Source: Citrus sinensis
Lineage: Eukaryota > Streptophyta > Magnoliopsida > Sapindales > Rutaceae
NCBI RefSeq assembly: GCF_022201045.2
Contig: NC_068558.1
Location: 3,749,501-3,813,500 of the forward strand
Length of the DNA: 64,000 nt
Direction of reading: 5' to 3'
Part shown: piece by piece, positions 14,054 through 31,540 of the stretch
Numbering within the stretch: the first letter of the stretch is position 1
Layout: every line of letters begins with the position of its first letter
The notes under the pieces: generated by a model
Told to the model about the DNA's origin: nothing
The model's input: only the letters and a program-made list of their open reading frames with translations
Databases searched by the model: none
Program-made: the position numbers and the translations under genes

Positions 14054-16896
14054 ATGACTTCTCAATTTTTCTTGATGCTCGTAGTAATTACAAGCACATC
14101 ATTTGTGTTCATGCTATTTATCAAGCTGCAGGAAAAGACGAGAGTTCGAGCAAAGAGGCTCCCTCCTGGTCCTTGGAAGCTCCCTGTTTTAGGAAATCTG
14201 CACCAACTTAACGGGGACTCACCCCATGTGTCCCTGCAACACCTTTCAAATGATTATGGACCACTCATGTTCTTGCAGCTTGGCTCTGTTCCCACTTTAG
14301 TAATTTCCTCAGCTGATGTTGCCAGAGAAATCTTCAGAACCCATGATCTCATTTTTTCAGGAAGGCCTCGATCATATGCTGCAAAAAAGTTCAGTTATAA
14401 CTTCAACAATATATCACTCGCACCCTATGGTGAGCACTGGAGGGCGGTCAGGAAGATTGTAATAATGGAAATATTGAGTTCAAAGAGGGTCCAATCATTT
14501 CAGGCAGTGAGATATGAAGAGGTGATGCTTATGCTTCAATTTATAGCTCAATCATTAACAAAGCCAATTGATCTAAGCAGATTGACACTTCTGCTATCCA
14601 ATAACATTGTATGCCGTGTTGCATTTGGTCAAAAGTCTGACAGCGGAGAATATAATGGCAGAAGCAGATTTGATGAATTGCTGCATCAAGCACAGGCCTT
14701 GTTAGGCAAATCTAGTATGGCAGACTTTCTTCCTTGGATGGGGTGGCTTAACATGTTTAATGGTGTTAAAGCAAGCATAGAGAAGACTTTCAGAGAAATT
14801 GACAACTTCTTTGATGAAGAAATACAGCATCATCTTGATCCTAGAAGGCCTAAACCCGAACATGAAGATCTGGTCGATGTACTTCTCCAAATTCATAGGG
14901 ACGCGGATGCAACCCTGAACTTTAAACAAATTAAGGGTGTCCTCATGGTATGTGTGTCTGTGTATATATATATATGTTATGTACTCAATAGTCAGTACAT
15001 ATATGCAGTCTTCTAGATCTTTATTAATTTCATCATTAATTATTTACTCCTCTTTAATTAAAACCTGAAACTGATAAGGGAAGAACAATTGTTAGGACAT
15101 ATTTGTTGCGGGGACCGATACATCTTCGGCCACGCTGGTTTGGACAATGGCCGAGCTTATCAGAAATCCATCCGTGATGAGAAGAGCACAAAATGAAGTA
15201 AGGTAGCGTTTATTTTTTTGGATTGGAGTGGAAATTCTGAGGAGTAGGAATCCTAAGATTGGGAGTGTGGAGTGGGAGTGAGAGTAGATTGTTTACTTAC
15301 ACTAGAATGGAAGCATGGAATGGAGATCAGAATCCAATTTATGTGTTTACTTTATCTTGGATTGAGAGTAAATAGTTTTAAATTACAATTTTATCTTTAT
15401 TTAAAGAATTATAGTTTTTAATTACAAAGTTAATAAAAATATATATTTAATGAATAAAAATTTATTTTATTATATTTGTAAATTTATAATAATTATTAAT
15501 ATTCTTAATTATGTACATCACAATTTTTTATTAATTTTAATTTTAATTATATAAATTAAAAATTATTGATAAGGGCAATATAAATGAAACATTTTTACTA
15601 TTAATATAGTACGAAATTAATATTTTCTTAGAATAAACTATTTATTAGTATTAATTATTAATATTAAATAAATATATTACTATTATTTTTAAATAAATAT
15701 AATAATATTATATTTTCAAATAAAGATGGTATATAGTAATCTTATTAATTCTCTATTAATATAATAATATTATTTTTAAGTAATTTAAACTTAGAATCAA
15801 ATCAAATTATTATTTAGGTAAATATAATAATATTATTTAAATATTTATTAAATATAATTATTGTAAATTTAATAAAAGGAGGGTAAATATAAAATGAAAA
15901 ATTATTTTATTTAATATAATTATATTAAATAATAATATAATATTATTTAGTACAAAATTAATATTTTCTTATAATAAATTATTTATTATTATTAATTATT
16001 AATAAATAAATATAATAATATTATATTTTCAAATGAAGATAGCATATAGTAATATTTATTAATTCTCTATTAATCTAATAATATTATTTTAAAAAAATTT
16101 TAACTTAGAATCAATGTAAATTATTATTTAGTTAAATATAATAATATTATTCAAATAAATATAATATTATTTATTATATTTTATTAAATATAAAATATTA
16201 AATTAAATAAGAAAAATGGTAGAAATGAGAGAGGTGGGAGTGGATTCCCACTCCCACTTCTCACTCCAAAAATGAGTGGAGTTCACGGAGTGGGATTCCC
16301 AATTCTTCTCCAAATTGATGAAGTAAACACTGGAGTAGGAGGAATCCACACTTCCCACTCCTACTCCAGCAAGTAAACGCAGCCTAAGAGGAGTCGTCAA
16401 GGGAAAAGAGGCGGTGGAGGAAAGCGATCTCTCCGAACTGATGTACCTCAAGATGGTTGTAAAGGAAGCACTGAGACTTCATCCACCAGCGCCGTTGCTA
16501 GTCCCTAGAGAAACTACTGAGGATTGCAGGATAGGAGAATACGAAATTCCTTCAGGGACAAGGGTGCTTATTAATGCAAAAGCCATAGCAACAGACCCTG
16601 AGTATTGGGAACATCCATTTGAGTTTCGACCTGAAAGATTCTTGAATAGCTCAATCGATTTCAAGGGACAAAACTATGAGTTGATACCATTTGGAGTAGG
16701 CAGGAGGGCATGTCCCGGAATTAATTTTGCCATCCCATTAATTGAGCTTGCACTCGCAAGTCTGTTGTACAGTTTCGACTGGGAGTTGCCACCAGGGATG
16801 AGAATTGAAGATTTTGATATGGAAGAAGCGCCCGGGATAACAATGCACAAGAAAACTCTTCTTTTCCTGATGGCCACAGCCTACACATCGACATGA
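14054..16896 (+). CDS. CYP71-family P450 with a transposon in exon 2, possibly spliced out
   Basis: Exon 1 is 14054-14947 (298 codons, signal-anchor then [17 protein letters not shown]); the phase-0 intron ends at 15095. Exon 2 starts at 15096 ([11 protein letters not shown]) and is interrupted at 15202 by an element ending at 16384. Coding sequence resumes and ends at 16896 with ExxR (KEALRLHPP), RPERFL and the haem loop [11 protein letters not shown]. If the GT at 15203-15204 and the AG at 16381-16382 are used, coding pieces 15096-15202 and 16383-16896 join in frame. The result is 504 residues with Cys444, normal for CYP71, and the only change is two added residues (Ser-Leu). Read unspliced, the gene is knocked out. 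There are no other stops or frameshifts, unlike its relative at 20998. Function is presumed specialised-metabolite oxidation. Confidence 0.75.
15202..16384. mobile_element. PIF/Harbinger-like non-autonomous element, copy 1 (1183 bp)
   Basis: The ends are inverted, GGTAGCGTTTATTT on the left and the complement GGCTGCGTTTACTT on the right, flanked by TAA at 15199-15201 and 16385-16387. A 3-bp TAA/TTA target duplication is the signature of PIF/Harbinger. Subterminal zones carry many GGAGTGGGAGTG-type motifs; the middle is about 85 percent AT by eye. No transposase frame is present. Comparison with the empty site in the paralogue near 22080 confirms the insertion point. Confidence 0.9.
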
Positions 16897-20997: not shown

Positions 20998-22592
20998 ATG
21001 ATTTCTCAATTTTTCTTCCTTCTCTTGTTAATTACAACCTCATCATTTGTGTTAATATTATTGATCAAGCAGAAAACTAGTAAAGCTCAAGCAACCAGGC
21101 TCCCTCCTGGTCCTTGGAAGCTCCCACTTATAGGAAATCTGCACCAACTTACCGGGGACTCACCCCATGTATCGCTGCAAAAACTTTCAAACGAATACGG
21201 ACCCCTCGTGTTCTTGCAACTTGGCTCACTCCCTACTCTAGTGATTTCCTCAGCTGACGTTGCCAGAGACATCTTCAGAACCCATGATCTTATTTTTTCA
21301 GGTAGGCCAGAGTTATATGCTGCTAAAATCTTCAGTTACAACTGCAGTAACATAACTTTTGCCCCATATGGCGAGTACTGGAGAGGGATCAGGAAGATAG
21401 CAATCTTGGTATTACTTGGTTCAAAGAGAGTCCAATCATTCCAGGCAATGAGAAATGAAGAAGTGGCGGATATGATTAAGATCATAGCTCGATCATCAGC
21501 AGAACCGACTGATCTCAGCAGATTGATATTTCTGCTAGCAAATAACATCATATGCCGTGTCACCTTCGGTAGAAAATACGACAGCGGAGCGGATACTGGG
21601 ACAACTAGGTTTGATGTCTTGATGCGGGAAATGCAGGCCGTAGTGGCGGAGTCCAGTATTGCAGATTTTTTTCCCTGGATAGGATGGCTTGACAAGTTTA
21701 ATGGCCGAGAAGCAAGAGTAATGAAGATTTTCAGAGAACTTGACAGATTTTATGATGAAGAAATATTACAGCAACACCTTGACCCTAGAAGGCCTAAACC
21801 TGAACACGAAGATCTTGTCGATGTACTTGTTCGAATCAAAAGGATTCAAGTCAAGCGGTAGCCGTAAGCAATGAACAAATCAAGAGCCTCCTCACGGCAT
21901 GCTCGATATATGCTAGTTCTTTTATTACTGATCCTAACTGTCTTTTGTTAACCATTTTAAAGCATACATTTCTATTAGGACATATTTGTTGCGGGGACCG
22001 ATACATATTCGGCCACGTTGGTTTGGACAATGACCGAGCTTATCAGAAATCCATCCGTGATGAGAAGGGCACAAAATGAAGTAAGAGGAGTCGTTAAGGG
22101 AAGAGAGGTGGTGGAAGAAAGCGATCTCTCCGAACTGATGTACCTTAAGTTAGTTGTAAAGGAAGCACTAAGACTTCATCCACCAGCGCCGTTGCTAGTC
22201 CCCAGAGAAACTACCGAGGATTGCAGGGTAGGAGAATACGAAATTCCTTCTGGGACAAGGGTACTTTTAATGCAAAGGCGATAGCAACAGACCCTGAGCA
22301 CTGGGAACATTCCGTTTGAGTTTCGACCCGAAAGGTTCTTGAATAGCTCAATCGATTTGAAGGGAAACAACTTTGTGTTGATACCATTTGGAGTAGGCAG
22401 GAGGGGATGTCCTGGAATGAATTTTGCCATGCCATTAAGTGAGCTTGCCCTTGCGAATTTACTGCATCGTTTTGATTGGAAATTGCCACCAGGGATCAGA
22501 ATTGAAGATTGGATATGGAAGAAGCGCCTGGGATGACAATGCACAAGAAAACTCCTCTTTGCCTAGTCTCTACACCTGCCATTCGTTTTTAA
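20998..22592 (+). pseudogene. CYP71-family P450 pseudogene, paralogue of the gene at 14054
   Basis: Exon 1 begins MISQFFFLLLLITTSS, aligned with [16 protein letters not shown] of the neighbour; an ATG at 20968 would add ten residues. The damage is clear. One base is lost near 21844, giving a stop at 21859-21861. The expected donor reads GC at 21897-21898 instead of GT. One base is lost near 22266, giving a stop at about 22282. One base is gained near 22310 and one lost near 22508. The helix I motif, ExxR and the haem loop (GRRGCPG) are still readable in pieces. It marks the empty site for the transposon in the neighbour. Four indels in one gene argue for real decay rather than sequencing error. 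Confidence 0.9.
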
Positions 22593-28613: not shown

Positions 28614-31540
28614 ATGCCGGGCAAGGAACGCTTGCGTTTTCTTATCAAATTCACGGCCACCGCCTTCTTATTATCTCTGCATTCGGTTTACTCTCTGCGA
28701 GTTTAAGGGAATCTCCAAATGGACAAAGGAAAATGGCAGCTCCTTCTCAACAACACCGGTGTTGTAGCCATGCATATGGCATTAACTCACCTCAACACTG
28801 TCATAATGTTTGATCAAGCGGGTGTCGGCCAATCGGGATACAGGCTACGTCACCGATTCAATGGAACAAGCCTAGTGTCTTCGAAGACTGGTCTTGTTAT
28901 GCACATTTTGTCGAGTACAACATTTTAGGCAACAAAATTAGGCCTCTAAGGTTTGACACCGATTCATGGTGCTCCTCGGGTTCTTTCTTGAGCAATGGGA
29001 CACTTCTACAAAGTGGTGGACATGGCATCACGCAGGATAAGATATTTCAGGCCCTGTGAAAATGGCCACTACAATTGGAAACAGTTAAAATGGTTACTGT
29101 CTGATGCTCGCTGGTATGCTTCGAATCAAATATTGCCTGCCGCGAATGATCGGGTGATCCTTGTAGGCGGAAGAGGGTCATTCATTTACGAATTTGTGCC
29201 TAAGCTGTCATCTAGCTCTAGCGACAAGTCTTTTCTCTTTCATTCTTGCAACGTACTTATGAAAGGAATGCTAGTGGAAACAACCTCTATCCCTTCACCT
29301 TTTCTCGGATGGCAATTTGTTCATTTTTGCCAATCGGGATTCAATCCTTTTCAATTACAAACGCAACAAGGTGGTCAAGACCTTTCCTTGAATTTCAGGG
29401 TATGGATCAAGAAACTGCCCAAGCTCAGGCTCATCGGTACTTCTCTGTTTAGACCACTCAAACAATTTTAGGAAAGTGAAAGTCATGGTGTGTGGAGGTG
29501 CAGCCGCAGGGGCTTACAGAGTTGCAGCACAAGGGAGATTCTTGAAAGGACTAAGCTCTTGTGGGACAATGGTGCTCACTCGAAACAAACACGTTTGGAA
29601 AATGGAACACATGCCAGAGCCCCGTCTCTTAAATAACATGTTGATTCTCCCAACTGGCCATATCCTGATCATCAACGGTGCTAAACGAGGTAGTGCTGGA
29701 TGGAACAATGCTGCTAGCCTGTCTTTCCGACCATACCTCTACAAGCCAAGGAAAACATTAGGCAAGGTTTTCAGTTCTAGCCTCCACAAAAATAGCTAAA
29801 TTGTATCACTCATCTGCTATATTTTTACCTGACGGTAGGGTCTTATGTTGTGTTTATTTTCTGGAGTGGGAGTGAAGAGTGTGGATTTTTCACTCCAGTG
29901 TTTACTTCAACTAATTAAGGAAGGATTGGGAATCCCACTCCGTGGGCCCCACTCATTTTTGGAGTGGGGAGTGGGAGTGGGACTCCTATGGGGAGAGGTG
30001 GGAGTGCGATCCCTTTTCTATCTTTTTTTTAATTTAATTTAATTTAATTTGATTTAATATTTTATATTTAATAAAATAAATAATATTATATTTATTTAAA
30101 TATTATTATTATATTTAACTAAATAATAATTTGCATTGATTATAGTTAAAATTACTTAAAAATAATATTATTATATTAATAGAGAATTAATAAATATTAC
30201 TATATGCTATCTTTATTTAATAATATAATATTATTATATTTATTTTAAAAATAATAGTACTTTATTTATTTAATATTAATAATTAATAATAATAAATAGT
30301 TTATTCTAAGAAAATATTAATTTTGTACTAAATAATATTATATTAATAAATAATAAATTTAATATAATTATATTAAATAAAATAAAGTTTCATTTTATAT
30401 TTACCCTTCTTTTTATTAAATTTACTATAATTATATTTAATAAATATTTAAATAATATTATTATATTTAACTAAATAATAATTGGGTTTGATTCTAAGTT
30501 TAATTTACTTAAAAATAATATTATTATATTAATAGAGAATTAATAATATTATTATATACCATCTTTATTTGAAAATATAATATTATTATATTTATTTAAA
30601 AATTATAGTATTATATTTATTTAATATTAATAATTAATACTAATAAATAGTTTATTCTAAGAAAATATTAATTTCAACTATGTTAATAGTAAAAATATTT
30701 CATTTATATTGCCCTTATCAACAATTTTTAATTTATATAATTAAAATTAAAATTAATAAAAATTGTGATGGTCATAATTAAGAATATTAATTATTATTAT
30801 AAATTTACAAATATAATAAAATAAATATTTATTCATTAAATATATTTTTATTAACTTTGTAATTAAAAATTATTATTCTTTAAATAAGGATAAAATTCTA
30901 ATTTGAAACTATTTACTCCCAATCTAAGACAAAGTAAACACATAAATTGGATTCTGATCTTCATTCCATGCTTCAATTCTAGTGCAAGTAAACAACTTAC
31001 TCTCAATCCCGCTCCACACTCCCAATTATAGGATTCATACTCCTCAGGATTTCTACTACAATCCAAAAAGTAAACGCTACCTTAATTGTTGGTGGTAATC
31101 CTAACTATAGGTATACTTTCAGCAACGTGGCCTACCCAACTGAACTAAGGCTACAAGGACTTGTCCTCCATTATATGGATAGGCGACACCATAACCTAAG
31201 GCCACTTAACGTGTCAATAAACTGTTACAGCAGCTTGAATAGTGGTGTTAAGTACGGAGGAGAGTTTAGTGTTGACTTTTGGCTAGAAAGGAGGTCAAGC
31301 AATTATGTTGAGTTCACTGCATATGAACCTCCATTCACAACGCACTCTGTTTCGATGAATCAAAGGATGTTTAGGCCGAGGTGTGAGGGCTCAAAGTGAA
31401 TGAGTGAGTGCGGTTTTGGAGGCCCCTTCTTCTTCTAATGTTGCACCTCCTGGTTATTACATGCTAAGTGTTGTCAATTGGGGTATTCCCAGCGTATCTC
31501 AGTAGGTTAGGTTCTTGCAAGCCCGAGTCATTGTCCCTTT
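28614..31540 (+). pseudogene. Glyoxal-oxidase-like (galactose-oxidase family) pseudogene, split by a transposon
   Basis: The intact family encodes secreted copper-radical aldehyde oxidases with a signal peptide and kelch-like propeller. Here the ATG at 28614 opens a signal-like segment that hits a stop after 30 codons. Recognisable blocks follow in shifting frames: LLNNTGVVAMHMALTH (28740s), IRPLRFDTDSWCSSGSF, RRIRYFRPCENG, DARWYASNQILPA, VMVCGGAAAGAY, EPRLLNNMLILPTGH and INGAKRGSAGWNNA. After DGRVL the gene is cut at 29846 by a 1236-bp element and resumes at 31082 with IVGGNPNYRYTF, ELRLQGLVLHYMD and FTTHSVSMNQRMF. A TAG at 31503-31505 stands where relatives have Trp before VRF. Several frameshifts plus the insertion make it non-functional. 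Confidence 0.9.
29846..31081. mobile_element. PIF/Harbinger-like element, copy 2 (1236 bp), opposite orientation
   Basis: It is flanked by TTA at 29843-29845 and 31082-31084. The right end is AAGTAAACGCTACC, the complement of copy 1's left end, so this copy is inverted relative to copy 1. It has the same GGAGTGGGAGTG-type subterminal zones and the same AT-rich core blocks as copy 1. It interrupts the glyoxal-oxidase-like pseudogene between codons for Val-Leu and Ile-Val. No transposase is present. Confidence 0.9.

Follow-up and report, generated by a model that had tools for sequence, protein, structure and literature searches.

The P450 gene under study occupies positions 14054-16896 (+) of the window, that is, of the whole stretch of 64,000 nucleotides of Citrus sinensis contig NC_068558.1 that was analysed. 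This gene is composed of two exons, each of which is matched by the Pfam family p450, and from its family features it is presumably of the CYP71 type. Exon 1 (14054-14947, +) displays an open frame of 298 codons (Pfam p450, E-value 2.4e-31) and is followed by a native intron GTATGT...TTAG (14948-15095, +), whose position is the same in the P450 paralogues. Exon 2 is divided into two parts by an inserted element. The 5' part (15096-15201, +) includes the target TAA and ends with the residues QNEV. The 3' part (16388-16896, +) extends to the stop codon, is matched by Pfam p450 with an E-value of 5.5e-51 from 16390 to 16893, and contains the ExxR, PERF and heme-binding motifs. Once the element is left aside, the native frame is open over 502 of 502 codons, in agreement with the original prediction that the rest of the gene carries neither stop nor frameshift, and the element is the only lesion. 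Among 83 highly conserved P450 positions, six deviate in this gene (range 0-11 in the 19 other non-redundant P450 sequences). The P450 paralogues show a length variation of one residue, located four residues downstream of the insertion site. The genome that was searched represents 299.7 Mb in 11 contigs, nine of which (25-52 Mb each) contain nearly all of it.

The inserted element (15202-16384, +) has a length of 1183 bp and is bordered by the target-site duplication TAA on the left (15199-15201, +) and on the right (16385-16387, +). It begins with GGTAGCG, which is the end located 5' in the gene, and terminates with CGCAGCC; the length and both ends had been correctly read in the original prediction. 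The AT-rich body that had been described is also found: its GC content is 0.183, whereas the exon parts have 0.416-0.472. The terminal inverted repeats, with a GG start and a CC end, are GGTAGCGTTTATT and GGCTGCGTTTACT; they are equal at 10 of 13 positions and are present, with variation, in many copies of the family. The target of Tourist elements is given as TWA (PMC12595863). The ends and the TWA duplications of the element, together with its high copy number, fit the Tourist/PIF-Harbinger group; a PIF/Harbinger-like element had been proposed. No stop-to-stop frame of 150 codons was detected within the element, and its sense strand contains 11 AATAAA hexamers. The size selection described for a survey of Citrus MITEs kept elements of at most 800 bp (PMC6466647), a size that the element exceeds, and a sequence of 1183 bp is more safely called a "MITE-like non-autonomous element".

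Searching the genome with the element gave 1179 first-look candidates, 40 of which were scored (P450 copy included), and in each of these the main match covers 942 or more of the 1183 positions. The 29 bases of its 5' end have 219 matches in the genome with at most two mismatches, and the reversed control has 0. Thirty copies of the family were read with their flanks, the P450 copy included: 22 are bordered by the same TAA or TTA left and right, two display another identical triplet, five are mismatched as read and for one the 3' end was not found. An upstream TAA or TTA was observed in 66 of 80 further copies. The transposase family DDE_Tnp_4 (PF13359) is represented by 146 matches in the genome. 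A sister 5' end (ending GGATTGGATTGG) was identical over 29 bases in 52 copies genome-wide. Recent activity of this sister subfamily, which has a common terminal repeat, is suggested. A second copy of the family is present in the window itself (29846-31081, -), where it lies in antisense orientation within an exon of a glyoxal-oxidase (GLOX) gene that has decayed, with TTA at 29843-29845 and at 31082-31084. The homologous stretches of this GLOX gene are in different frames, as judged by eye and uncounted.

The closest paralogue of the P450 gene (75%; 20998-22574, +) is a pseudogene. It is uninterrupted at the place of the insertion, so that the empty target site GAAGTAAGAGGAGTC is seen directly. 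The four lesions attributed to it were all recovered: exon 1 contains an early stop close to its end, and exon 2 has three indels of one base each. Identity between positions 15154-15201 plus 16388-16739 and positions ~22030-22430 of the paralogue reaches 91-95% over ~400 bp, and identity in exon 1 is 78%. The pairwise dN/dS values between the P450 gene and the pseudogene are 0.35 for exon 1, 0.23 for exon 2, and 0.22 and 0.20 for the two parts of exon 2; these pairwise values of 0.20-0.35 combine the periods before and after the insertion inseparably. Over codons 1-150 of exon 2 the dS is 0.195, against 0.575 in exon 1. From these sequences, the region looks like one where gene conversion occurred in the past between the P450 gene and the paralogue. 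Since the paralogue does not contain the element in the converted stretch, the insertion is probably younger than the conversion event.

The P450 copy of the element differs from the nearest relative found at 57 of 1160 sites and by six indels. Twenty-eight of these 57 changes are derived in the P450 copy, and eight of the 28 are unique among the 30 copies. The terminal branch of the P450 copy obtained with FastTree (0.05) is longer than the raw distance between the two copies (57/1160) permits, so that the raw counts were used. On this basis the insertion could have any age up to about 2.4% divergence. The chance that an unselected frame remains free of lesions is comprised between 0.10 and 0.42 at 0.7% divergence, and between 0.001 and 0.08 at 2%, depending on the indel rate assumed. 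The clean frame could simply mean youth, and it is compatible with a young null allele; it would point to selection on the P450 gene only with an insertion near the old end of the age range. Relative to copy L002, C>T or G>A changes make up 20 of the 28 that are derived in the P450 copy, an excess that could stem from methylation and deamination. Nothing was concluded from this reading, as 214 of the 234 C/G sites of the consensus are in CHH context and the other copies are similar.

The original prediction was that the element is removed from the transcript as an intron. Candidate splice sites were scored using models trained on P450 introns of this genome (27 donors, 38 acceptors), all at one homologous intron position; these models ignore enhancers, exonic bases and branch points. 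The sequences L032 (pseudogene), L038 (offset model), L044, L045 and L056 (no model), as well as duplicates, were left out of the training, as were those of the 40 fetched intron regions for which the script found no boundary; one of the 40, L064, had a wrong placement. The predicted donor AAG/GTAGCG (15203-15208, +; exon end 15202, phase 2) is average: its PWM score is at the 33rd percentile, and its U1 pairing (-6.5, 56th percentile) equals or exceeds that of 56% of the 27 true donors and of 97% of the background GTs. A competing donor GAA/GTAAGG (15198-15203, +; exon end 15197, phase 0) is located 5 nt upstream, with an intronic PWM score at the 85th percentile and a U1 pairing of -5.1 (41st percentile), so that the PWM and the U1 pairing disagree on the stronger of the two donors. 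This donor, the acceptor with exon start 16389 and the higher-scoring in-frame pair 15197/16339 are absent from the original prediction.

The acceptor side is weaker. The predicted acceptor ACGCAG/CC (16381-16382, +; exon start 16383) has a PWM score of 0.1, at the 3rd percentile of the 38 true acceptors. The pyrimidine tract that had been assigned to it ends at a CCAG, and both AG 16368-16369 and AG 16372-16373 are interposed between the tract and AG 16381-16382. The acceptor that directly follows the tract, CTCCTACTCCAG/CAAG (16368-16369, +; exon start 16370), has the top score between 16200 and 16440 (2.7, 8th percentile), and leads to a stop with donor 15203 as with donor 15198; neither 15202/16370 nor 15197/16370 is found among the 33 open donor/acceptor pairs. 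Two other acceptors are GGAGTAG/GAGG (16337-16338, +; exon start 16339), at the 8th percentile and devoid of pyrimidine tract, and TAAG/AGG (16387-16388, +; exon start 16389), which is formed by the duplication and a G of the host and scores -4.0. All the acceptors scored between 16200 and 16440 are at or below the 8th percentile of the 38 true P450 acceptors. The junction 15202/16383 is in frame, as had been calculated, and gives 504 residues with Ser-Leu added after Glu-Val, and the junction 15202/16389 would restore exactly the pre-insertion protein of 502 aa. The contrast in AU content between introns and exons is a feature used by plant splicing, and here the contrast between the element and the GC-richer exons is strong.

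The in-frame junction was compared with a control of 400 random, partly overlapping draws of 1183 bp, taken on either strand from three stretches of the window and placed at the same insertion site. An open pair situated at most 12 nt from both ends, with a score at least equal to that of the predicted pair, was found in 74 of the 400 control inserts, and any open pair with a sum of at least 3.6 in 230 of them. A frame-keeping terminal junction is not rarer here than chance would give (74/400), and from these two controls the coincidence is mild and, alone, unremarkable. When the element is reversed, the terminal open pair scores 2.2, against 3.6 as inserted. The terminal scores of the other copies of the family were not used, these copies being cut at the BLAST boundaries.

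Both ends could be placed in 29 of the 30 copies read (P450 copy included). The terminal GT is present in 21 of them, the terminal AG in 14, and both in 11. Since 11 copies combine the two, these dinucleotides are family traits that predate the insertion into the P450 gene, with no sign of later refinement at the locus. Splicing of a copy at its own ends, with the GT starting at the second base and the AG formed by the fourth and third bases from the end, would leave G, CC and the 3-nt duplication. This remainder of 6 nt would correspond to two codons in any phase, for insertions in the orientation of the P450 copy. At TAA targets it would contain no stop in either usable phase, and at TTA targets it would contain TAG in one of three phases. 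This putative two-codon rule is an interesting property of the ends.

In maize, alleles are known where exonic Ds and dSpm elements are removed as introns with their terminal sequences as splice sites; unlike the P450 element, these belong to the hAT and CACTA groups and their splicing was proven by cDNA. mPing is listed as a PIF/Harbinger element (PMC12595863). According to a review (PMC5056178), the rice mutant lcd-kmt1 carries mPingA1 in exon X of OsNRAMP5; the last 32 bp of this exon are replaced, the rest of the insert leaves with the native intron X, and the transporter is disrupted. OsNRAMP5 resembles the present locus in that a PIF/Harbinger MITE entered a coding exon, and there element sequence is removed by splicing. 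It differs in that both candidate sites of the P450 gene, which are predicted from the DNA, would be at the ends of the element. For exon 13 of Arabidopsis CMT1, the results on Evelknievel include three competing splice variants with 25% of events in frame, splice sites partly derived from the end of the element and the target duplication (by RT-PCR and sequencing), and a transcription through the element that depends on its silencing (PMC6238269). Evelknievel is, like the P450 element, an exonic transposon with sites at the element end and target duplication; unlike it, Evelknievel is a Copia-like retroelement whose splicing was seen in RNA. For ONSEN in Arabidopsis, PMC12112155 reports a case of full-length intronization in an exon as well as exonization that breaks the frame, and seven insertions showing partial exonization with disrupted frames. 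These are also exonic insertions, and differ from the P450 case as new insertions of an LTR retrotransposon documented by cDNA. It is established that plants splice out some of the transposons located in their exons, at times giving a mixture of products (PMC6238269, PMC12112155). Splicing of the P450 element would be a new example of a known phenomenon, with a Tourist-like element as an intron at its own ends.

As it stands, the locus represents a well-defined exonic insertion, and we consider, with a probability of roughly 0.6, that this insertion mainly disrupts the gene and at best allows leaky in-frame splicing. A non-autonomous Tourist/PIF-Harbinger-like element has inserted at a TAA target within exon 2, and the P450 gene was probably intact until then. 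Should the gene be transcribed, the bulk of its RNA would probably read into the element and meet an immediate stop (frame GAA GTA AGG TAG), be polyadenylated inside the element, or be spliced to 16370, the first acceptor with a pyrimidine tract, which also leads to a stop; in-frame splicing would account for a minor share at most. The outcome would probably be an allele that is null or strongly weakened and still too young for further decay. We infer this fate of the RNA and this loss of function from several observations. The acceptors are weak and the best of them (16370) results in a stop with either near donor. The same family of elements occurs in an exon of the decayed GLOX gene, and the closest paralogue is also dead. 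The 11 AATAAA hexamers are on the sense strand, the terminal GT and AG are shared with other copies of the family, and the in-frame coincidence is not rare among the controls. By analogy, the ONSEN exonizations with broken frames and the 25% of in-frame events at Evelknievel point in the same direction. Against disruption, the 502 codons are open and the deviation at six of 83 conserved positions is within the range of the other P450 sequences. If all 28 derived changes (28 of 1160 sites) postdated the insertion, a clean unselected frame would be rare (0.001-0.08 at 2%). The U1 pairing of donor 15203, which beats most background GTs, the strong AU contrast and the limited scope of the splice models also speak against it.

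An overlapping explanation, which we hold as tentative, is that the insertion is polymorphic or heterozygous and that an intact gene exists on the other haplotype or in related accessions and supplies the function. The otherwise clean frame is expected of a young insertion, and the insertion is known from one assembly.

A newborn intron, in which GTAGCG at 15203 is spliced to ACGCAG at 16382 (or to TAAG at 16388) and selection keeps a working P450, is unlikely. It would account for a frame that is kept with 504 or 502 residues, for a gene with no other lesion, and for a GC content of the element far from that of the exons. The U1 pairing of its donor at the 56th percentile, the variation in length of the paralogues four residues downstream, which indicates that small insertions are tolerated nearby, and the plant precedents of exonic transposon splicing are also in its favor. 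Opposed to it are the weak acceptor at 16383, preceded by an AG with a pyrimidine tract that leads to a stop, and the competing donor 5 nt upstream. In addition, 74 of 400 control inserts are equal or better at their ends, the terminal splice dinucleotides are a trait of the family, and an exon of the GLOX pseudogene in the window also contains one of its copies. By chance, an AT-rich insert can easily look like an intron that preserves the frame. The sequence neither demands splicing nor excludes it, and leaves a functional new intron under selection possible but unsupported. If true, it would represent a natural case where the empty site is visible in a paralogue, combined with a simple two-codon rule that may apply to the whole family.

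It is improbable that the P450 gene had lost its function by the time the element arrived, in the way the paralogue and the GLOX neighbour have: these two decayed genes in the same window would fit such a history, and the element as the only lesion and the retention of conserved sites speak against it. Still less probable is an intronization from donor 15198 (GAA/GTAAGG) to the acceptor GGAGTAG/GAGG, with exon start 16339 and 46 nt of the element exonized as coding sequence, since this pair (15197/16339), although top-scoring among the 33 open pairs (5.8 + 1.7), is equalled or surpassed by an open pair in 94 of 400 control inserts, uses an acceptor at the 8th percentile without pyrimidine tract, and adds 15 residues to the 502 (517 aa).

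Introners are reported from many eukaryotes, in many genes per genome, and none is reported from land plants (PMC9860276). Some introners derived from DNA transposons contain both splice sites and add few extra residues (12 bp in Aureococcus) (PMC9860276). The examined copies of the P450 element family differ from them in not having been found in intact exons. Both ends were placed in 28 copies besides that of the P450 gene; one of these is exonic (antisense, in the GLOX pseudogene) and no exonic insertion was recognised among the other 27, judged by the open length across the joined site alone. Three copies (L008, L018 and L029) have open joined flanks of 100-141 codons. The upstream flanks of 80 more copies contain 37 open stretches that extend to the element over 34 codons or more, and the ten of these that were scanned gave no Pfam match over the cut-off. 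In this partial survey of flanks, an introner family with many copies as introns in coding genes was unsupported. We regard it as highly improbable that the family is, in a land plant, a latent intron cassette that leaves the reading frame intact, with the P450 copy as the first one caught working. For copy L136 (G000:C4:15378026-15378294), the flank has no Pfam match and, by eye, presumably resembles part of a retroelement Gag protein.
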